Below are positions 1 to 8,293 of a stretch of 8,293 bases of DNA, piece after piece; positions within the stretch are counted from its first letter, which is position 1, and each line of letters starts with the position of its first letter. Source of the stretch: Synergistaceae bacterium (GTDB taxonomy: Bacteria; Synergistota; Synergistia; Synergistales; Aminobacteriaceae); assembly GCA_017455085.1 (NCBI GenBank), contig JAFTBT010000027.1, positions 1-8,293 of the forward strand. The letters are read 5' to 3'. The translations under genes were made by a program, and so were the position numbers. A model generated the notes under the pieces. That model had not been told where the DNA came from. It saw nothing but the letters and a program-made list of their open reading frames with translations, and made no database searches.

Positions 1-1
1 T

Positions 2-616
2 AAGTGCGGAACTTTGCACACACTTTCGCCTGATTCTAACAAAGATCTTTACAGCAAAAATATTCACAACTGCACAAAACAGCCTGACTACCCGCCAAGA
101 TATACGCTAAAATCTATATACAGATTTTTTGACGGCAAAACCGGCGCAACAGCCTTCTACAAGCTGCACCTAGCGCAACGAAAAGTTTTTCAGACAGCTT
201 GCAGAGTCATGAACAGAGGCCTATACGCTCAGGCACTGGACTTTTTCGCGATAATCCCCAACTTTGACGGAGTCAAGGCAAAAGCTCGTGAATGCAGGGA
301 AGCCGTCTACAGCAAAGTCTTTGACTCCACAATAAAACATGTTGAGCAGGAAGCCCAAAAATTCAGAAACATAACACCTGCAAATCTGGATCATGTTACT
401 GCGGCTATGATGCTGGAACTCTCAGAACAGAAACTACCATCAGGAGCGGAATATATCCATGAGATCAAGGCCGTTGCTGCCAAAAAACATAAAGATTTCA
501 TGAAGATATACAAGCCCCCAAAACGCAAAGGAGATTTTGCCGTGATACTAGGTGCATTGCTGCAAGGGCTGGTTATGTGGATAATCTTCAAGATACTGGA
601 GGCGTTATTATCGTGA
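2..616 (+). CDS. Membrane protein of unknown function, TPR-like, 5' end missing
   Basis: I do not recognise a named family. The frame is open from base 2 with no stop, and its first residues read K-C-G-T, the typical end of a zinc ribbon (CxxCG), so the gene probably starts to the left with a zinc-binding domain. The first possible start, TTG at 14, has no convincing ribosome site. The middle contains a helical repeat-like stretch (about nt 200-320; AQALDFFAIIPNFDG followed by KAKARECREAVY). This resembles the TPR-like units of zinc-ribbon membrane proteins, where short helices carry D/N-F/Y-x-x-x-K-x-K turns. A basic segment (KPPKRKG) precedes one hydrophobic C-terminal helix (about nt 535-610), so the protein is probably tail-anchored with its bulk in the cytoplasm. 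It overlaps cbiC by 4 bases (GTGA), suggesting translational coupling. The link to cobalamin synthesis is inferred from position only. Confidence 0.75.
   Translation, partial: KCGTLHTLSPDSNKDLYSKNIHNCTKQPDYPPRYTLKSIYRFFDGKTGATAFYKLHLAQRKVFQTACRVMNRGLYAQALDFFAIIPNFDGVKAKARECREAVYSKVFDSTIKHVEQEAQKFRNITPANLDHVTAAMMLELSEQKLPSGAEYIHEIKAVAAKKHKDFMKIYKPPKRKGDFAVILGALLQGLVMWIIFKILEALLS
598..602 (+). promoter_or_regulatory. Ribosome binding site fixing the cbiC start
   Basis: GGAGG lies 10 bases before the GTG at 613. It supports GTG 613 over the in-frame ATG at 577, which has no such site and would add 12 residues not expected in the family. The site lies inside the coding region of the upstream gene. 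Confidence 0.7.
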
Positions 617-1224
617 TCACTGAACCCAAAGCCATCGAACAGGAAAGTATGCGCATAATTCAGGAAGCTATAGACTCTTCCGGAGGGTATTCCGGCTCTC
701 CTGAGAATCTCCCCGTCATCAAGAGAGTCATCCACGCAACAGCAGACTTCGATTTTCTGCACACCCTGTATTTTTCTGACGGAGCAGTCTCACAGGCACG
801 TCAAGCCCTCGCAAACCACACACCCATCATCACGGATACCAATATGCTCATGTCCGGGATCAGCAAGCGTTACGGCGTGAAAATACTCTGCCGGATCTCT
901 GACCCTGAAACCCACTCACAAGCCCAAGCCCGAAATACTACCCGTGCTGTCGTCAACATTGAGCGTGCTGTTCATGAATACCCAAGCGCAATTTTCGCCA
1001 TAGGCAACGCTCCTACAGGGTTAATCCGGCTGTGTGAACTCATAAGTGAAGGCAAAGCAAATCCCGCCCTCGTCGTCGGTGTACCTGTTGGGTTTGTGAA
1101 CGTCATCGAGGCCAAGAACATGCTCACAGACCTCGCAGACACCCCCAGAATCATCGCTCACGGAAACAAAGGCGGGACTACTGTAGCTTGTGCAGTCATC
1201 AACGCAATACTTTACGGGCTGTGA
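613..1224 (+). CDS. cbiC: Cobalt-precorrin-8 methylmutase
   Basis: CbiC/CobH moves the C11 methyl group of (cobalt-)precorrin-8 to C12, giving (cobalt) hydrogenobyrinate/cobyrinate, late in corrin-ring synthesis in the cytoplasm. The 203-residue product has the family's usual length. Visible signatures are the N-terminal P-K-A-I-E motif (5-9), the RVIHATADFDF segment containing the catalytic histidine (His41 here), the substrate-binding TDTNM segment, the ISDPE segment, and near the C-terminus AIGNAPT, VGVPVGFV and GNKGGT. The start is GTG at 613, overlapping the previous gene's stop as GTGA and preceded by GGAGG. The other cbi genes of this window are on the same strand but separated by a phosphatase gene on the opposite strand. 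That makes the cobalamin locus split and not one simple operon. Confidence 0.95.
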   Translation: MITEPKAIEQESMRIIQEAIDSSGGYSGSPENLPVIKRVIHATADFDFLHTLYFSDGAVSQARQALANHTPIITDTNMLMSGISKRYGVKILCRISDPETHSQAQARNTTRAVVNIERAVHEYPSAIFAIGNAPTGLIRLCELISEGKANPALVVGVPVGFVNVIEAKNMLTDLADTPRIIAHGNKGGTTVACAVINAILYGL

Positions 1225-1225
1225 C

Positions 1226-2044
1226 TCAGTTGTTCACCTTCCAGATTCTCAGCGCGTCAAGTTTTGCCTTGTGCTGTTCTGCCGGAGACATCCTGCCGTA
1301 ATTCTCTGCAAATGCTCCAAGCCACGAGCCGTATACAGGATTCGGAAACACTATATACTTTTGGCCGAAGAGTTCACGGTTCTTGTCAGCTATTGCGTTG
1401 CGTTCCGTCATGTTCCTGCCGTAAATCCCAATCGGAAAATCATGCGCGCTGTCTCCAAGATACACAATCACGCTGTAATCCTCCTCGATCTTGCTGAATC
1501 TGGCTTCCTTCTGTCTGCTGCTTGAGGTCAATACTGTGTGGCGTTCGTCAACCTGCGGAAAGTTCAACGCCTTCATGTTGCGCATAGTGTCAGCTTTTGC
1601 GCTTTCCGGCCTGTTCGTTACGTAGAATATGCTCACTCCCAGTGCGTCAACTGCATTCAGGAACTCTTCAGCTCCGGGCATTGCTAAGGCTTCTGCTGCC
1701 TTCCACCATTCCGGCAAGAGTCTGCCAGATGAAGCGTCTGTGTCAAATACCGAAGCATCTACAGCTAAGTTGTCTATCACTGTTTCGTCGCAGTCCAGAA
1801 TTACCGCTAAAGGTTTGTCCCCGCTCTTGGCGGACTCTGCGGCTGCCCTGACACGTTCAAGTGCGCTGTTATAGGCCTGATAGCACAAAGCCCTGTACTC
1901 CGCTGAAGTCTGCACCCAGAGAAGTGCATCGATATTTTCGTTGTTGATGTCCCTCTGCGTGATGGGAAGAGCTTCCGGAAAATAATTCACTGCCAGCAGA
2001 GCAAGACACGCCCCAGCAGCAAAGCCGGTAATGTATTTCTTCAT
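1226..2044 (-). CDS. HAD-family class IIIB acid phosphatase, e(P4)-like
   Basis: This family comprises secreted or membrane-anchored, metal-dependent acid phosphatases/5'-nucleotidases that release phosphate from nucleotides and other monoesters outside the cytoplasm. All four HAD motifs are visible in the 272 residues: motif I D84-C-D86-E-T, followed by V-I-D-N as in e(P4); motif II T143 in YVTNRPES; motif III K179; motif IV G197-D198-S-A-H-D202-F. Residues 1-22 form a hydrophobic leader (MKK, then GFAAGACLALLAV). Cys13 is not in a good lipobox, so this is probably an uncleaved anchor or signal-peptidase-I leader, unlike classical lipoprotein e(P4). AGGAGG lies 5 bases before the ATG. Its stop is one base from the cbiC stop, with the genes converging; upstream it is divergent from cbiD. 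The exact substrate cannot be read from the sequence. Confidence 0.9.
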   Translation of the reverse strand: MKKYITGFAAGACLALLAVNYFPEALPITQRDINNENIDALLWVQTSAEYRALCYQAYNSALERVRAAAESAKSGDKPLAVILDCDETVIDNLAVDASVFDTDASSGRLLPEWWKAAEALAMPGAEEFLNAVDALGVSIFYVTNRPESAKADTMRNMKALNFPQVDERHTVLTSSSRQKEARFSKIEEDYSVIVYLGDSAHDFPIGIYGRNMTERNAIADKNRELFGQKYIVFPNPVYGSWLGAFAENYGRMSPAEQHKAKLDALRIWKVNN

Positions 2045-2053
2045 AGCAGCCTC

Positions 2054-2081
2054 CTGAAAATATGGATCGCTGAATTATAAT
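2054..2081 (+). promoter_or_regulatory. Promoter of cbiD, probably giving a leaderless mRNA
   Basis: CTGAAA (2054-2059, 4 of 6 matches to TTGACA), a 16-base spacer and a perfect TATAAT (2076-2081). Normal spacing puts transcription start at 2088, which is the A of the cbiD ATG. No ribosome binding site precedes that ATG. The 6-base -10 element is certain as sequence; leaderless initiation is inferred. Confidence 0.6.
2074..2079 (-). promoter_or_regulatory. -10 element of the phosphatase gene, overlapping that of cbiD
   Basis: The minus strand reads TATAAT here, because bases 2074-2081 (ATTATAAT) form a perfect palindrome. Start of transcription would be near 2067, giving a leader of about 22 bases that contains the AGGAGG of the phosphatase gene. 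No good -35 is visible on this strand. Confidence 0.5.
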
Positions 2082-2087
2082 GCGTTC

Positions 2088-3134
2088 ATGAACAATCTTC
2101 GTACAGGCATAACTACAGGAACATGCGCCGCCGGAGCTGCTAAAGCCTCTGCCCTGAACTTGGCCGGACATGAACCCAAATGCGTAACTGTCCGGAATCT
2201 TGAGGGACGTGAATTTGTGCTTGAGGTTTTCCGTGAAGGGGAGTATTTCGGAGTCCGCAAGTATTCAGGCGACGACAGAGCAGACATCACAGACGGAGTC
2301 AGTGTACTTGCGCGGGTTGAGGTGCTTGGCGGTGAAGGAGGTATCACGTTCTGCGCAGGAGAGGGAGTCGGTACGGTAACTCTTCCCGGCCTGAAGGTAG
2401 GAGTCGGTGAACCGGCAATAAACCCCGTACCCAGAGAGATGATTGCGCGGGCTGTGCGTGAAGTTTTCCCGAAAGAGTCCCTGCGAATCACCGTAGCTAT
2501 TCCCGGAGGCGTTGAGCTTGCACGCAAAACCTTCAACCCCAGACTCGGAATCGTGGGAGGACTCTCAATTCTCGGCACTACAGGAATCGTGAAACCCATG
2601 AATGAACAGGCACTATTAGACTCTCTGACGCTTGAGGCCTCTATGATTCGGGCAATGGGATTCTGTGAGATATATATCACTTTCGCGGCGACAGGTGAGA
2701 GCTTCACACGCAGATTGTTTCGCGTTCAGGGAAGGAATGTGATTCAGGCAGGCAACTATGTCGGGCATGTTCTGGATGAATGCGCAAGGCTGGGATTCAC
2801 TCACGCAGTAGTATGCGGCCATCCCGGAAAGCTCCTGAAGGTCAGTGCAGGCAGCTTCAACACACACAGTAAATTTTCCGGCGGAGGGCTTGAGGCGTTG
2901 TGTACACAGCTCGCGATTCTGGGTGCAGGCCGTGAACTCGTTGGCAGAATCTATCACTCAAACACTACACGTGAGGCAATCGAGATAGTTCGGCGTGAGG
3001 GGTATAGTTCGGTGTGGAATGTGCTTGCAGGAATCACAGCAGGCAAATGCGAAGAGCGGACAGGAGGCAGCGTGAAAGTGAGAGCAGTATTCTTTGACGG
3101 AGAAGGGCAGATTTTGGGGAGTGATTGTGTATGA
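2088..3134 (+). CDS. cbiD: Cobalt-precorrin-5B C1-methyltransferase
   Basis: CbiD uses S-adenosylmethionine to methylate C1 of cobalt-precorrin-5B, the step of the anaerobic (early cobalt insertion) pathway that gives cobalt-precorrin-6A. The 348-residue length is normal. Signatures are the N-terminal RTGITTGTCAAGAAKAS block (5-21), the central GEGVG, GLKVGVGEPAINPVPR and GGLSILGTTGIVKPM segments, and the C-terminal GHPGKLLKVSAGSFNTHSK region. ATG 2088 places the conserved RTG motif at residue 5 as in the family. It has no visible Shine-Dalgarno sequence and lies exactly where transcription should begin. The stop overlaps the next start (ATGA), so cbiD and cbiET are translationally coupled. 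Presence of CbiD marks the anaerobic route of B12 synthesis. Confidence 0.95.
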   Translation: MNNLRTGITTGTCAAGAAKASALNLAGHEPKCVTVRNLEGREFVLEVFREGEYFGVRKYSGDDRADITDGVSVLARVEVLGGEGGITFCAGEGVGTVTLPGLKVGVGEPAINPVPREMIARAVREVFPKESLRITVAIPGGVELARKTFNPRLGIVGGLSILGTTGIVKPMNEQALLDSLTLEASMIRAMGFCEIYITFAATGESFTRRLFRVQGRNVIQAGNYVGHVLDECARLGFTHAVVCGHPGKLLKVSAGSFNTHSKFSGGGLEALCTQLAILGAGRELVGRIYHSNTTREAIEIVRREGYSSVWNVLAGITAGKCEERTGGSVKVRAVFFDGEGQILGSDCV

Positions 3135-4399
3135 CGGAGCTGATCATAGCCGGAGCAGGTACGGGGAATTTCGCGCACATGACTCCGGAAGTCAGGGAGG
3201 CGATTTTGCGGGCGGATGTAGTTTGCGGTTCGGGAAGGTTCAGGAAGCTCGTACCCCCTTCACAGAAATTCATACCCCTAACGAGTTTTGCGGAGACGTT
3301 CACGAAACTAGAGCATGAGTCCGGCCAAGTAGTTATTCTCGTGTCCGGAGATCCGGGAGTGTACAGCCTGCTGCCCATCGTCAGGAAAAGATTCCCCAGC
3401 ACAAAAATCACTGTCCTTCCGGGTATAAGCTCGCTGCAAGTCCTGTGTGCATATGCCGGAGAGTCATGGAGTGATGCTGTGATTCTGTCGGGTCATGGCC
3501 GGAGTCTGAGTGTGGGGCGATTCCTGAATGTGGTTGAACGCAACAGGCTGGTGATTCTGTTCTGCGACGGGGTCAACTCTCCGCAACGGGCTTGCGAAAA
3601 ACTTGCTGGCCTTTCCGTAGTGAGTGCAGTTATCGGCGAAAATCTCGGCACTACATCAAGAATCAGTGTAGCTATCGGCGAAAATCTCGGCTCTGAGTCT
3701 CAGCGCATACTCTCAGGCACTCCTCAAGACTTCGTGACTCATGAGTCCCCAGAGTTATCGCTAATGCTCGTGAAGAATCACAGGCCATTTTCACCCGAAA
3801 ATCTTCACCCCAGAGACAGGGAATTTCTGCGGGCTGAAGGTGTCGTGATGACGAACGAGTCAGTGCGTGCGGTGATACTTGCTCGGCTGAACTTGCGGAG
3901 TGATTCCGTGTTGTGGGACATCGGCGCAGGGACGGGGAGCATCAGCGTGTGTGCGGGGCTGGAGTTTCCGGAGAGCGAGATTCATGCTGTGGAGTGCAAG
4001 CCTGAGGCTGTGAGGGTTATTGCTCAGAATGCGGGGAGATTCCACCTGCACAACATAGCGATTCACGAGGCGAGGGCTCTTGACGTGATGGAGACTCTCC
4101 CGAAGCCTACACACGTGTTCATCGGCGGAAGTAACGGGGAGTTAGCGGGGATACTTGCGCGTGTCGGGAAAATGGGTGAGGGTGTTAGGGTAGTGGTGGC
4201 TTGCGTGACACTGGAGACGTTCGGGATGGCGTATACTCTCATGAAGACTTGGCCGGAGTTTGAGGCTGTACAGGTATCTATCACTGAGTCAAAGCCCCTC
4301 ACAGATTCATCTACCCTCATGAAGCCGAAATGTCCCATTATGCTTCTCTCCGCAATGAGTGAACAAAATTTTAGTCCTCCCGAAAAATTTACACCCTGA
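3131..4399 (+). CDS. cbiET: Fused precorrin-7 C5-methyltransferase and C15-methylating decarboxylase (CbiE-CbiT)
   Basis: The bifunctional enzyme methylates (cobalt-)precorrin-7 at C5 (CbiE) and then methylates C15 while removing the C12 acetate carboxyl (CbiT), giving (cobalt-)precorrin-8, the CbiC substrate. The start is ATG 3131, overlapping the cbiD stop by 4 bases with GGAG 9 bases upstream; TTG 3125 is less likely. The CbiE domain covers about residues 1-205: GAGTGN (8-13), SGDPG (72-76), then PGISSLQ and SGHGRS. The CbiT domain covers about 220-422: REFLRAEGVVMT-type entry segment, SAM motif I DIGAGTGS (263-270), then FIGGSNGEL. Residues 165-178 and 179-192 are a tandem in-frame duplication of the IGENLG segment that CbiE normally carries once. 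The fused form is the same architecture as CobL. The last bases carry the promoter of the next gene. Confidence 0.95.
   Translation: MTELIIAGAGTGNFAHMTPEVREAILRADVVCGSGRFRKLVPPSQKFIPLTSFAETFTKLEHESGQVVILVSGDPGVYSLLPIVRKRFPSTKITVLPGISSLQVLCAYAGESWSDAVILSGHGRSLSVGRFLNVVERNRLVILFCDGVNSPQRACEKLAGLSVVSAVIGENLGTTSRISVAIGENLGSESQRILSGTPQDFVTHESPELSLMLVKNHRPFSPENLHPRDREFLRAEGVVMTNESVRAVILARLNLRSDSVLWDIGAGTGSISVCAGLEFPESEIHAVECKPEAVRVIAQNAGRFHLHNIAIHEARALDVMETLPKPTHVFIGGSNGELAGILARVGKMGEGVRVVVACVTLETFGMAYTLMKTWPEFEAVQVSITESKPLTDSSTLMKPKCPIMLLSAMSEQNFSPPEKFTP
3623..3706 (+). repeat. 42-base tandem duplication inside cbiET
   Basis: Two adjacent 42-base units (3623-3664 and 3665-3706). The first 27 bases match at 25 positions, including 19 identical bases in a row (from 3631 and 3673); the rest has diverged. 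The unit is 14 codons, so the reading frame is kept. Confidence 0.85.
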
Positions 4400-4415
4400 A
4401 AATTTACGCTATAAT
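4388..4415 (+). promoter_or_regulatory. Promoter of the solute-binding protein gene
   Basis: TTTACA (4388-4393, 5 of 6 matches), a 16-base spacer and a perfect TATAAT (4410-4415). Transcription should start near 4422. The -35 lies inside the last codons of cbiET. The 10-base word GAAAATTTAC occurs here as an imperfect direct repeat with a 15-base period (ending 4392 and 4407) and could be an operator. Confidence 0.75.
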
Positions 4416-4464
4416 ATGCCCCATTCAGCAACACACTATATTTTTATGACGGAGGTATATTCTC

Positions 4465-5265
4465 ATGAAGAAACTTTTTTTTACTCTTATGCTCTTAGTG
4501 TTCACAGCGGGTACATGCTTCGCGGACGGCCTGAACATCTCCAAGCCCGCAGACTTCGTGAACTACAAGGTCGGGACTCAGAGGGGGACTATCGCTGAAG
4601 GTCTGGCCAAGAATATGCTCGGCGACAAGGCAAAAGCTCAGCTCACCACGTACGAGAAGGCTACTGATGTGGTGCAGGCTCTGAAGGTCGGGAAGATACA
4701 GTGCGCGATCATGGACGAGGCTCCTGCGAACCAGTTCGTGAAGAATGATCCGGAGACCCTGAAGATTCTTCCGGAGGCGTTGACGGTTGAGCAGTACGCT
4801 ATAGGCTTCAAGCAGGGCAACAAGGAATTACTCGACGCGGTGAATAAGGCACTTGCGGAGATAAAGGCTGACGGATCACTCGAGAAAATCATGCTGAAGT
4901 ACAAGGAAGACCCCACAGCGGCAAAGCCAGAAGATATTGACCTGCACAAGGGAGCGGAAGGCGGAAAGCTGTATGTAGGGACGGAGTCGGGATTTCCTCC
5001 GTATGATATTAAGGTCGGGGATGGGTATACGGGCATAGATATAGAGATGTGTGCATTGATTGCTGGGAAGCTGAACAAAGAGCTGGTTATCATTGCGTAC
5101 CCGTTTGACTCGCTGTTTATGGCGGTGAACTCCGGAAAAGTTGATATGATTTGTGCGGGGATTACTGTGAACGAGGAGCGGAAGATGTTCACGGATTTTT
5201 CTGAGCCGTACGAGGACGCGAAGCAAGTGGGGTTAGTGTTGACGAAGGACTATGCAGGCGAGTAG
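4465..5265 (+). CDS. Periplasmic amino-acid-type solute-binding protein with permuted domain order
   Basis: Type 2 solute-binding proteins capture a ligand, usually a polar amino acid, for an ABC importer. Residues 1-20 are a signal peptide (cleavage after C-F-A, then D21); there is no lipobox. Residues 23-147 match what is normally the second half of such proteins: KVGTQRGT (35-42), GKIQCAIMDEAPA (76-88), YAIGFKQGNKELLDAVNKAL, and a terminal DGSLEKIMLKY helix. A Lys/Pro/Asp-containing linker (about 148-166) follows. Residues 167-266 then match the normal first half: VGTESGFPPY (171-180), GYTGIDIEM (187-195), GITVNEERK (232-240) and DFSEPY (244-249), ending in the hinge strand LVLTKDY. The usual ligand contacts are kept: Arg239 for the carboxylate, Asp84 for the amino group, and Gly41-Thr42. 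GGAGG lies 9 bases before ATG. Own promoter and terminator suggest a single-gene unit; no permease genes are nearby. Confidence 0.9.
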   Translation: MKKLFFTLMLLVFTAGTCFADGLNISKPADFVNYKVGTQRGTIAEGLAKNMLGDKAKAQLTTYEKATDVVQALKVGKIQCAIMDEAPANQFVKNDPETLKILPEALTVEQYAIGFKQGNKELLDAVNKALAEIKADGSLEKIMLKYKEDPTAAKPEDIDLHKGAEGGKLYVGTESGFPPYDIKVGDGYTGIDIEMCALIAGKLNKELVIIAYPFDSLFMAVNSGKVDMICAGITVNEERKMFTDFSEPYEDAKQVGLVLTKDYAGE

Positions 5266-5286
5266 CAGACAGGAATAGCGATAACG

Positions 5287-5318
5287 AATCCTCCCGTGAG
5301 AGTGCGGGGGGATTTTTT
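5287..5318 (+). terminator. Intrinsic terminator of the solute-binding protein gene
   Basis: A 10-base-pair stem (5287-5296 with 5305-5314, one T-G wobble) with an 8-base loop TGAGAGTG and a run of six T (5313-5318). It starts 21 bases after the stop codon. Confidence 0.9.
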
Positions 5319-5390
5319 GTGTGTGTATGTGTGTGTGAAAAATTGACTGTGAAAAATTTATGAAAATGTAAAACAAAAGATAGGACTTTG

Positions 5391-5399
5391 TGCTATAAT
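5391..5399 (+). promoter_or_regulatory. Extended -10 promoter of the pilin gene
   Basis: TGC followed directly by TATAAT (5394-5399) is a perfect extended -10 element, which can work without a good -35; none is visible. Transcription would start near 5406, giving an mRNA leader of about 184 bases. Confidence 0.65.
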
Positions 5400-5526
5400 T
5401 CAGTTTGTCATCCAAATACGCACACGACATGTTATCGTATCATCCTATCTGTGAGTATTATATCACAAGGCAGCGATGACGTGAATTAGTTGTGTGCAAA
5501 ATTTTTGTAACAATTAGCGTTTTTGG

Positions 5527-5548
5527 TGCGCAGTAACCAGTCTGTGCA
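5527..5548 (+). other. Hairpin in the pilin mRNA leader
   Basis: TGCGCAG (5527-5533) pairs with CTGTGCA (5542-5548), 7 base pairs with one G-T wobble, around an 8-base loop. It ends 25 bases before the strong AAGGAGG (5574-5580), so it could affect mRNA stability or translation. No known regulatory RNA family is recognised. Confidence 0.4.
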
Positions 5549-5589
5549 AGGCAGCAACAAGGGAAAAAATTTTAAGGAGGCACACAATT

Positions 5590-6144
5590 ATGAGGAAGTT
5601 TCGCAAGGGATTCACGTTAGTTGAGCTGTTGATAGTCATCACGATTCTGGGAACGTTGGCGGCGGCAATGTCGAGTTCAACCGGAAATGCTACAGCTAGG
5701 GCAAAAGCAGCATCAATCGTAGCGAATGTAGAGGCCTGCAAGACAGCGGCAGCTATTTTCTACAATGACCACTGGGATGATGCAAAAGTTAATGTTAAGG
5801 CTACAGCTGAGGGCACGGCAACAGCAACAAATATGTCTGAAACAACAGCAGCAGCATTTTTAGGAAACTTTGAGGATGGTTATGATTATGTCCCTAACTG
5901 GTCAGATTTCTCTGCAGCAGGCAAAAATATAGTCTTTTCAGTTGACACTACGAAATACGGAGATGAAGGCAAAAAAGGACAGGGCCGCGATAACTGGGCA
6001 ATAAAAGTAGATTTTACGAACGATGCAGAGGCCGCTAATGTTCAAGAAGCACTCGCAAAACTGAAGGGATATTCTGCTGTGGTAGCAAATAAAACCGTAT
6101 TCTACGTAAATCTGACTACAGGCAAAGTCACAGTAGACGAATGA
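5590..6144 (+). CDS. Type IV pilin-like / pseudopilin protein with prepilin leader
   Basis: The product is a subunit of a type IV pilus or type II secretion pseudopilus, assembled from the inner membrane after cleavage by prepilin peptidase. The N-terminus is a textbook class III signal: basic leader MRKFRKG (1-7), then FTLVELLIVITILGTLAAAM. Cleavage falls after Gly7, and the required Glu5 of the mature protein is Glu12. A long helix follows, then a Thr/Ala-rich stretch (about 72-95) and an Asp/Lys-rich globular C-terminal part. There is only one cysteine, so the C-terminal disulfide loop of type IVa major pilins is absent. A strong AAGGAGG lies 9 bases before ATG. Own promoter, long leader and terminator make this a single-gene unit, more typical of a well-expressed pilin than of a minor pseudopilin within a secretion operon. 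Whether it is a major pilin cannot be decided here. Confidence 0.9.
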   Translation: MRKFRKGFTLVELLIVITILGTLAAAMSSSTGNATARAKAASIVANVEACKTAAAIFYNDHWDDAKVNVKATAEGTATATNMSETTAAAFLGNFEDGYDYVPNWSDFSAAGKNIVFSVDTTKYGDEGKKGQGRDNWAIKVDFTNDAEAANVQEALAKLKGYSAVVANKTVFYVNLTTGKVTVDE

Positions 6145-6180
6145 TTTAGCTTATAACCTACAACCAACCAACACACTTTT

Positions 6181-6209
6181 TTCCGGGCCTGACAAAACCG
6201 GAACTTTTT
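6181..6209 (+). terminator. Intrinsic terminator of the pilin gene
   Basis: TTCCGG (6181-6186) pairs with CCGGAA (6198-6203) around an 11-base loop, followed by C and five T. On the minus strand the hairpin is followed by A residues, so it should serve the pilin gene only. No terminator was found for the minus-strand gene ending at 6231. Confidence 0.65.
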
Positions 6210-6230
6210 CACCCTTCCTCCCTCACTCCC

Positions 6231-7082
6231 TCACTCCTCAGGCCGCTTGCTCTTCCGCCAGTCACGAGGCGATACCCCGTATATCGTCTTGAACGCACGC
6301 GAAAAATGCAGCGGATTCTCATACCCCACAGACGCCCCGATCTCGTTCACAGGCCTCTCCGTCCCCGCCAAAAGTTCAGCAGCCTTGATCATCCTGTAGT
6401 TCATCAGGAATCTTTGCGGTGATTTCCCAGTGGAGAGTCTAAATATCTTCCCGAAATAGCTCCGGTTCAGCCTCAATGCATCAGCCATCTCCTCAATAGT
6501 CATGTCTCGCTGATAGTTATTCTCGATATACGCCACCGCCTCACGTATGTAGAACTCCCGCAGCCTGCTCGTGATCACTTTTCCTGCATTCTCCGCCGAA
6601 CGAGTCAGGCAGTCCATGAACAAATACATGTGGCCTATCAGCTCAAACACTGAACTCTCGCTGTGGTCGACTATGTACAGAATCTCATCACGCAATTTCT
6701 CCCGCAGGTCCGGTAATTTCGCACGATACACCGGCTCTGACTCAGAAAACCCCGCACCCTCCAGCGCATTCTTCACACGCAGCCCGTCAAACTCCAGCCA
6801 CGCATACTCCCACGGATTCGACATGTCCGCAACGTACAGATTCACCTGCTCCGGGAAAATCATAAACCCCTCTCCAGCCCTCACAGTGTACGTGTGTGTA
6901 TTGCCCTGCGAGTCATCGGAGTATAATGTGCCTTTGCCGCTCAGTACGTAGTGAAAGAGATAGTGATTCCGTCTCGCTGGTCCGAACGAGTGCCCGGGTT
7001 TGCAGGCCTCACGTCCAAACTGGTATAACCCCAAGTCCACAAAACTCTGATTCGGGAAAATAGAGAACTGTATTTTATGCAC
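6231..7082 (-). CDS. AraC-family transcriptional regulator
   Basis: This is a cytoplasmic DNA-binding regulator. Residues about 10-140 form a cupin-like sensor domain of the AraC-binding type (NHYLFHYVLSGKGTLYSD, then a VRAGEGFMIFP turn). Residues about 180-278 form the two-helix-turn-helix domain: REAVAYIENNY, MTIEEMADALRLNRSYFGKIF, and the second-HTH signature NEIGASVGYENPLHFSRAFK, closing with YGVSPRDWR. The start is GTG 7082, with AGGAG (7088-7092) 5 bases upstream. The longer open frame reaching 7214 would begin inside the divergent gene, past this gene's own promoter. The result is 283 residues, normal for sugar- or organic-ligand-sensing members. Such regulators often control the divergent neighbour, here the PaaK-like gene. 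The ligand is unknown. Confidence 0.9.
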   Translation of the reverse strand: MHKIQFSIFPNQSFVDLGLYQFGREACKPGHSFGPARRNHYLFHYVLSGKGTLYSDDSQGNTHTYTVRAGEGFMIFPEQVNLYVADMSNPWEYAWLEFDGLRVKNALEGAGFSESEPVYRAKLPDLREKLRDEILYIVDHSESSVFELIGHMYLFMDCLTRSAENAGKVITSRLREFYIREAVAYIENNYQRDMTIEEMADALRLNRSYFGKIFRLSTGKSPQRFLMNYRMIKAAELLAGTERPVNEIGASVGYENPLHFSRAFKTIYGVSPRDWRKSKRPEE

Positions 7083-7107
7083 TGCTGCTCCTAAGTATGT
7101 ATTGATT

Positions 7108-7135
7108 TTGTCCGTGTGAACTGTTGTGATATTAT
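7108..7135 (+). promoter_or_regulatory. Promoter of the PaaK-like gene
   Basis: TTGTCC (7108-7113, 4 of 6 matches), a 16-base spacer and TATTAT (7130-7135). Transcription should start near 7142, 26 bases before the ATG, leaving room for the AAGGA (7154-7158) ribosome site. Confidence 0.55.
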
Positions 7136-7136
7136 A
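7131..7136 (-). promoter_or_regulatory. -10 element of the AraC-family gene, overlapping that of the PaaK-like gene
   Basis: A perfect TATAAT on the minus strand, sharing five bases with the plus-strand TATTAT. Start of transcription would be near 7124, giving a leader of about 42 bases before the GTG at 7082. No clear -35 is seen. Confidence 0.5.
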
Positions 7137-7167
7137 CCCAAAATCCCAACATGAAGGACGTGAAATA

Positions 7168-7866
7168 ATGCAGTTCACAGCTAAACAGAAGGAAGATATT
7201 TTTCTCGAACGCACAAGGACTAAATACCCTCAGGTCTGGGAACACTACACAAAACATGTCGCTCACGAGTTAATGTCTGAGTCCGAACTCGCCGCCTATA
7301 ACTTCGAGCAGCGCAGGAAAATCGTTGCATACGCCTACGAAAATGTCCCGTTTTACCGCAGACTCTATGATGCTGCCGGATTCTCTCCCCAAGACCTCAG
7401 GACAGAGCAGGACTGGCAAAACATCCCCGTAGTTACGAAGCCAATGATCAGGGAAAATTTCGCAGACACCATCGCCGGAGGACTTGACGGTGATCTCGTC
7501 AGGAACTACAGCCGCAAACTCGCAACAGGAGGCTCAACCGGAATCCCGCTACCCATAATCCGCGACATGAGGTACGAACAGGCAGGCAGCACCTTGTGGA
7601 GATCACGAGGCTGGTGGCTTGGCCGTCCTGCGGGAGAACTCACAGGCCCGATCCCCGTGCTCGGTCAGGACGAAGGCATAGTGTGGAGGGTCAAGGGTGT
7701 GAACGTCAAGACTCCTGAAGAGCTGGAGGAAGAACGCAGGCTGTACTTCCCGATGAAACGCTCATACCTCGACGCGCAGAATATGTCCGCAGAAAACATG
7801 ACCCGATTCTACGAAGAATTACATACGGGGGGGGGGGCTACATTCAGGGATACGCCGGAGCAGTAA
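7168..7866 (+). CDS. PaaK/CapK-like adenylating enzyme, first part (out of frame after a G run)
   Basis: Members of the phenylacetate-CoA ligase (PaaK) family, including CapK-type proteins of surface polysaccharide loci, activate a carboxylate with ATP. The start is ATG 7168, with AAGGA 9 bases upstream. Visible features are the YAYENVPFYRRLYDAAGF block typical of the N-terminus of this family, the IPVVTKPMIRENF segment, and the phosphate-binding loop TGGSTGIP (120-127). At residues 220-223 the gene meets eleven consecutive G (7827-7837). After them this frame reads 10 unrelated residues and stops at 7866, giving a 232-residue product against the family's usual 430 or so. The rest of the enzyme continues in the -1 frame. 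Read literally, this strand encodes a truncated, presumably inactive protein. The substrate is not identifiable. Confidence 0.85.
   Translation: MQFTAKQKEDIFLERTRTKYPQVWEHYTKHVAHELMSESELAAYNFEQRRKIVAYAYENVPFYRRLYDAAGFSPQDLRTEQDWQNIPVVTKPMIRENFADTIAGGLDGDLVRNYSRKLATGGSTGIPLPIIRDMRYEQAGSTLWRSRGWWLGRPAGELTGPIPVLGQDEGIVWRVKGVNVKTPEELEEERRLYFPMKRSYLDAQNMSAENMTRFYEELHTGGGATFRDTPEQ
7827..7837 (+). repeat. Run of eleven G inside the PaaK-like gene
   Basis: A homopolymer G11, by far the longest G or C run in the window. Nine or twelve G would join the two halves of the gene in one frame. Runs of this length are prone to slippage during replication, transcription, translation and sequencing. Confidence 0.95.
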
Positions 7867-8293
7867 CAGAGTTCGCCGCCTTCTGTCTGGAAAACCACCT
7901 CACGAATTATCACCCTCTCGCCGCACAAGTCATCTCCAATCCCATAGATATACTTCAACGCCGTACTATACGGGCTGCCTTTGACTGTCCTGTGTATGAT
8001 GTTTACGGCTCTAAGGAAGTCCAGAATATGGCCGTAGAGTGCCAGCACAGTGATCATCACCTGCACGTTTTGAGCGACCTGCGACACATAGAGCTGCTTG
8101 ACGAAAATTTGCGTCCGGTTCAGGACGAAGACTGGGGGACTGTATACGCTACCAGCTTCACGAACTACATCATGCCACTGATTCGCTACTGTCTAGGTGA
8201 CCGGACTCACTGGGTGCGCAGAAAATGTGACTGCGGGCTGCCGTTCCCGCTCATTCACAGAATCACAGGCAGGGAGTCTGACGTTATCCGCGA
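7839..8293 (+). CDS. PaaK/CapK-like adenylating enzyme, second part (-1 frame, runs off the window)
   Basis: This open frame has no start of its own and continues the protein interrupted at the G run. It opens with YIQGYAGAVTEFAAF, matching the conserved GYPS-like segment expected right after the break. It then shows the adenylate-forming core motifs in correct order: VYDVYGSKEVQ (the YGxTE motif), a segment ending LIRYCLGDR (the YxxGD motif), CDCGLPFPLIHR, and GRESDVIR (the GRxDDVI hinge motif). About 151 codons are present with no stop to the right edge; a further small C-terminal domain is expected beyond. The unbroken frame and intact motifs argue that this half is still under selection and not decaying. 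That favours a switchable or slippage-rescued gene, or an error in the sequence. Confidence 0.85.

Follow-up and report, generated by a model that had tools for sequence, protein, structure and literature searches.

Probable natural circular permutation of an amino-acid-type solute-binding protein in Synergistaceae

The stretch of DNA analysed here, termed the window, comprises 8,293 nucleotides of a Synergistaceae bacterium (assembly GCA_017455085.1, contig JAFTBT010000027.1, positions 1 to 8,293 of the forward strand). It harbors an open reading frame (ORF) with exact boundaries at 4465-5265 (+) that encodes a protein of 266 amino acids (aa), a secreted product judging by the signal peptide read from its sequence. 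The chain of a normal type II binding protein runs from the first part of the large lobe (N) through a first hinge strand (hinge 1), the small lobe (M), and a second hinge strand (hinge 2) to a tail completing the large lobe (T); M and T together are denoted as C, and the order of the elements was derived from the alignments of this analysis. The window protein reads M-T-N and very probably represents an amino-acid-type solute-binding protein (SBP_bac_3, cluster F) that has been circularly permuted in nature.

PF00497 (SBP_bac_3) is the sole Pfam family matching the window protein at E <= 0.001 (105.2 bits against a cut-off of 26.4, E 2.9e-30), and the match is split into two stretches, the best of which pairs residues 170-261 with profile positions 2-92. 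In the PDB comparison, residues 166-257 correspond to 9-101 of AncQR 4zv1 and residues 27-146 to 111-230 (E 2.8e-34). Among three PDB alignments, 4zv1 and 5tuj match in two exchanged stretches; with GlnPQ 6h30, residues 25-252 align in one piece, only across the GlnPQ tandem. The canonical SBP_bac_3 order, N-lobe then C-lobe, is absent from the window protein, so that its kinship to the family is one of homology, not of topology. An earlier note, made from the sequence alone, had proposed exchanged halves joined by a new linker of about 19 residues, with the cut in the hinge. The split profile match and the PDB alignments confirm the exchange, both halves matching the normal relative 4zv1 with the second part first; the gap between the two matches has exactly 19 residues; and by order and model the hinge 1 strand is now the free C end. 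The gene and its flanks carry the following features:

4388..4415 (+): promoter-like site TTTACA-16-TATAAT, agreeing with the consensus at 11 of 12 positions; pattern match only
4465..5265 (+): gene of the permuted SBP_bac_3 protein, 266 aa; from ORF, PF00497, PDB alignments and homologues
4465..4527 (+): predicted signal peptide, residues 1-21 (ends CFA/D); sequence reading, model helix 2-17, no signal-peptide program score
4549..4785 (+): small lobe (M), residues 29-107, normally mid-chain; PDB alignment, approximate boundaries
4588..4590 (+): Thr42, expected to contact the ligand; invariant in an alignment of 32 rows
4714..4716 (+): Asp84, expected amino-group contact; invariant in the same alignment
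4786..4908 (+): second hinge strand and C-terminal tail of the large lobe (T), residues 108-148; PDB alignment and model, approximate boundaries
4903..4959 (+): new joint linking the former C and N ends, residues 147-165; gap between the two 4zv1 matches
4960..5211 (+): first part of the large lobe (N), residues 166-249, at the start of a normal chain; PF00497 and PDB alignment
5179..5181 (+): Arg239, expected carboxylate contact; invariant in the same alignment
5212..5241 (+): first hinge strand, residues 250-259, now the free C end; PDB alignment, model strand 250-259
5286..5315 (+): intrinsic-terminator-like hairpin, 13 pairs then a T run; pattern match only

In the region of hinge 2 and T, the model shows a strand at 99-116 and helices at 120-135 and 138-148. 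Within the joint, I158 is invariant and P155 and D159 are nearly invariant in the family alignment (32 rows). A normal type II chain builds its large lobe of two separate pieces. Since residues 147-165 join T to N, each lobe of the M-T-N chain would form one continuous stretch; order and model suggest that only hinge 2 is still covalent, i.e. that one of the two crossovers has been removed.

In a homologue search with the window protein, 116 of the 120 matches listed (of 325) show the order lobe 2-lobe 1 (M-T-N), the other four being pieces of 166-187 aa with lobe 2 (M-T) only. The search for the same order that the earlier note had suggested is thereby answered, and the order was also mapped on a tree (see below). 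When genome contigs were scanned, 530 relatives came up, and 79 loci were kept. By ORF, 73 of these are M-T-N (L001-L072 and L077; the N part is incomplete in L069 and in L067, which seems frameshifted near its end), one (L073) reads N-C-N-C, and five represent a second permutation, T-N-M. Loci L001-L031, 76-91% identical to the window protein, constitute the window's own class A, loci L033-L067 (49-60%) the paralogous class B, and loci L070-L079 (29-37%) are clostridial. M-T-N also occurs in the complete genome record of Fretibacterium fastidiosum (NC_021038, L032). In the phylum search, 50 of 185 Synergistota genomes matched at E <= 1e-35, with at most 14 candidates scored per genome. The ratio of nonsynonymous to synonymous substitution rates (dN/dS), computable in three of five pairs (not for L009 and L011), is 0.042-0.045 for the window gene against L001, L005, and L021. 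The exchanged order is kept under purifying selection. Two cysteines of the large lobe (window 5050-5154) are conserved in the Synergistota family, C230 invariantly and C196 nearly so (32-row alignment). Viral contigs were searched as well and yielded no relatives (six pattern matches, none confirmed), on which ground a viral origin was rejected.

Thr42, Asp84, and Arg239 are the expected amino-acid contacts, the role of Thr42 being that in GlnBP/LAO structures. All three are invariant in the 32-row alignment, as the earlier note had led one to expect. Among 291 C-N proteins, the Thr42 position holds T in 268 (19 gaps, 4 other letters), the Asp84 position D in 271, and the Arg239 position R in 270 (8 gaps, 13 other letters).

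Gene context in class B points to transport. A permease match starts between 22 bp before and 85 bp after the gene end in all 35 loci, and an ATPase match follows within 2.5 kb in 34 of them, the exception having 749 bp left; in the examples, these neighbours carry PF00528 (permease) and PF00005 (ATPase). In clostridial L070-L072, a permease match lies within 300 bp downstream in three of three. From the class B context, the permuted form most likely serves an ATP-binding cassette (ABC) importer of the PAAT type.

Permuted modules also form tandem rows ahead of a fused permease, with up to 12 modules in Synergistaceae and four in Clostridia. Among the giant ORFs fetched (more were seen), seven are whole arrays in permuted register, with C as the first and N as the last element: L110 has 12 modules (3249 aa), L111 seven, L113 four, L115, L123, and L124 three each, and L114 two. 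A PF00528 permease follows each permuted array, and the giant proteins span 764-3249 aa with 2-12 modules (e.g. L110:3857-13606). L112 has three modules in permuted register and is cut at its far end. The one whole array in normal register is L073/L128 (N-C-N-C, then permease); the other array readings with N at the start or C at the end (L164, L174, L179, L180, and L182) are cut by the end of the stretch. A comparison of L115 with L111 assigns C and N jointly to modules 1, 4, and 6. The break that accompanied the gain or loss therefore lay between N and C; at the two junctions of this one pair, this speaks for C-N as the unit.

Within one order, 22 of 295 genomes match a profile of the clostridial form (E <= 1e-60). 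The 120 homologues of L070 listed (of 7988 matches) comprise 87 C-N, 25 C-N-C, seven N-C-N, and one T-N-C-N protein; a half-repeated T-N-C form accounts for 2 of 120 among the matches listed. One clostridial-type C-N protein (P0309) is named as Ruminococcus flavefaciens. The C-N-C proteins (P0264, P0269, P0330, and 22 more) combine one large lobe with two small lobes that keep the contacts (Asp in 50/50 and Thr in 49/50 small lobes, Arg in 25/25) and whose C lobes are 46-82% identical to each other (median 60%). Such half-repeated proteins look like duplicate-then-trim intermediates of the permutation or like later additions. The earlier note had suggested an origin by gene duplication followed by loss of the outer halves: proteins of the kind that this route calls for do exist, and the tree cannot orient them. 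Three supposed C-N-M proteins were rejected as intermediates, being probably T-N-M with a longer first match. In a set of 15 matches, at least two, which begin at residue 87, are probably of normal order.

The second permutation, T-N-M, is cut at the other hinge and was found in clostridial lipoprotein-like binding proteins (L074-L076, L078, L079, and L092). On a tree of 58 rows and 197 columns, which has long branches and from which arrays and short-matching orphans were left out, the label changes twice for M-T-N and four times for T-N-M. Forcing both kinds into one clade is rejected (approximately unbiased (AU) test, p 7.8e-54), which implies at least two independent permutations. One clade of all T-N-M proteins is rejected as well (p 0.00056); without L092 and L079, both removed after seeing the tree, it is not (p 0.38). 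On the free tree, the Synergistota and clostridial M-T-N proteins are not one branch, though one M-T-N clade is not rejected on the full tree (p 0.17) or on single-lobe trees (N p 0.76, C p 0.36).

The window protein most probably forms a single Venus flytrap whose lobes are linked by one covalent crossover, and would bind an alpha-amino acid through Thr42, Asp84, and Arg239. As no permease is seen beside the window gene, the protein would hand this ligand to a PAAT-type ABC importer that probably belongs to the co-occurring paralogue of class B. The permuted form probably arose by partial duplication (C-N-C or N-C-N) with subsequent loss of the outer halves, and the same fold appears to have been permuted independently at the other hinge in Clostridia. 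Taken together, a type II amino-acid binding protein of gut bacteria would have been permuted independently at each hinge strand. M-T-N and T-N-M would be mirror solutions, each with one covalent crossover and two continuous lobes, and the route would be visible in the half-repeated proteins; C-N-C proteins would be flytraps in which two competing small lobes share one large lobe, and the permuted module would be the building unit of importers with 2 to 12 modules. This joint reading is held with about as much belief as doubt.

Several observations weigh against these proposals and are given together with the alternatives on which they bear. Asp is missing in 20 of the 291 C-N proteins, 19 of which are divergent orphan paralogues (in L033, L037, L047, L050, L051, L052, L062, L080, L116, L117, L119, and L120), and in the tandem arrays 42 of the 64 C lobes that have a letter at this position retain it, Arg being kept in 61 of 67 N lobes (18 proteins including L180 and L073, with some overlapping or identical copies). 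Since Asp is lacking in these proteins and array lobes, not every permuted module need bind amino acids. The permuted binding proteins of L116-L120 are divergent, measure 270-314 aa, and occur with up to three genes in a row, and in L117 a permease match (31% identity) and an ATPase match (52%) come next; those of them included in the count of contacts lack Asp, so their ligand may differ.

No permease match was found in the 2.5 kb downstream on the same strand in any of the 31 class A loci (less than 1 kb is available there in L008, L017, and L030), and L032, L068, L077, and L105 lack a downstream permease match as well. The orphan class A protein might therefore be a sensor or scavenger feeding no transporter, and the location of cbiET upstream on the same strand in 19 of the 31 loci, where some contigs end before that place, fits such a role. 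This is unlikely, if the least unlikely of the alternatives: class A is 49-60% identical to class B, which adjoins permease and ATPase genes, of the 31 genome records that contain a class A locus, 24 have one of class B as well, and the window genes scanned include no receptor partner. The window gene is accordingly regarded as an orphan whose class, to judge from the class B genes, probably shares an importer.

Alternatively, the lobes could stem from two different binding-protein genes, which were fused rather than one gene being permuted. The nearest normal relative of the Synergistota members indeed differs between the lobes, the top mean identity over nine Synergistota rows being to L121 for N (41%) and to P0217 for C (38%). 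In seven clostridial rows, however, both lobes point to L121 and L109 (41-48%), and half-repeated proteins exist. The lobe trees are too short to establish a single gene as the source of the two halves. A fusion is judged rather improbable.

Less probable still, with only a slim chance, is a pairing of lobes between chains, in a domain-swapped dimer or with a lobe lent to another binding protein. A swapped state is conceivable because one crossover is cut and the lobes are held by a single strand, and it is in keeping with the modest predicted template modelling score (pTM 0.76) of the structural model. The best full-length structural match has a root-mean-square deviation (rmsd) of about 4 A; given this value and the pTM, the lobe-lobe arrangement is not firmly modelled. 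The top match of the model, OpuAC (2B4L), is aligned in chain order over 210-219 residues. Plain Foldseek against the PDB gave E values down to 1.8e-7 with low template modelling (TM) scores (0.23-0.51) and mixed families, HisG first, which we take as order-dependence of the method. A fragment, an assembly error, or a decaying remnant of a tandem binding protein is hardly credible: tandem proteins do occur in these genomes, but signal peptide and stop are intact, the order recurs in the listed homologues from many assemblies and in the complete record of L032, the gene evolves at a dN/dS of about 0.04, and matches extend to the 50 Synergistota genomes. The claim of the earlier note that the gene is whole thus stands on its signal peptide and conserved order; the promoter-like and terminator-like sites that it had also invoked are only suggestive, since their numbers in the pattern scan (4 and 2) are near those in shuffles (2.2 and 1.4).

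As for the neighbouring genes, the cobalamin genes cbiC, cbiD, and cbiET occupy window 577-4399, with an acid phosphatase gene on the other strand (1226-2044) between cbiC and cbiD. Downstream of the permuted gene lie a pilin-like gene with the N-terminal methylation motif PF07963 (5590-6144) and an ORF of 246 aa (7126-7866) that partly resembles the start of phenylacetate-CoA ligase-like proteins and looks cut short (NCBIfam TIGR02155, positions 2-90 of 422, below cut-off). In L018, a protein of 1926 aa with leucine-rich repeats, C-type lectin, papain-like protease, and lectin-like domains is encoded just downstream of the class A gene (8955-14735).

In textbooks, binding proteins stand for the two-crossover flytrap, and many biosensors are based on them. 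Families cut at either hinge, together with putative intermediates, allow one to test whether closing, affinity, and docking depend on both crossovers, and which course circular permutation takes; they also offer ready-made permuted scaffolds with new ends at the hinge. The rearrangement is hidden in annotation, as the functional names in the sources, where given, are those of an ordinary substrate-binding protein.

A literature search among open-licence papers found no permuted SBP_bac_3 family, hinge-cut pair, or permuted arrays; in the parts of the papers available, PMC2861598 has no passage on permutation, the sole 'permut' passage of PMC9732360 concerns inserted green fluorescent protein (GFP), and the solute-binding passages of PMC12667903 deal only with carbohydrate-binding proteins. 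Normal SBP_bac_3/cluster F proteins (GlnH, HisJ, ArgBP, AncQR 4zv1; PF00497) are homologous in both lobes and have the same expected contacts, whereas in the window protein the halves are exchanged and one crossover replaces two. Naturally permuted binding proteins as such are already known. By structure comparison, the glycine betaine-binding protein OpuAC is reported to be related through circular permutation to other proteins that bind betaine, to molybdate-binding proteins, and to CysB proteins (PMC2395249). Its likeness to the window protein is one of topology alone: OpuAC differs in sequence family and ligand, and its profile PF04069 gave no match to the window protein at E <= 0.001. TpMglB-2 (Tp0684), assigned to 'Type Ic / Cluster Bc', is a naturally permuted ABC binding protein that is functional in vitro and has relatives in gut Gram-positives (PMC4990184). 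As described there, it has the sugar-binding type I/cluster B fold, in which strands of the N lobe are permuted and a fourth crossover has been added, whereas the window protein is of type II, is cut at the hinge, and has lost a crossover; only PF00497 matches it, and the solved relatives heading its list are amino-acid binding proteins, which places it outside that cluster. In GlnPQ, two antiparallel strands join the lobes of the binding domain, and SBP_bac_3-type domains in tandem are fused to the permease as in the arrays reported here (PMC8025302); GlnPQ has two normal modules, whereas the arrays comprise 2-12 modules in permuted register.
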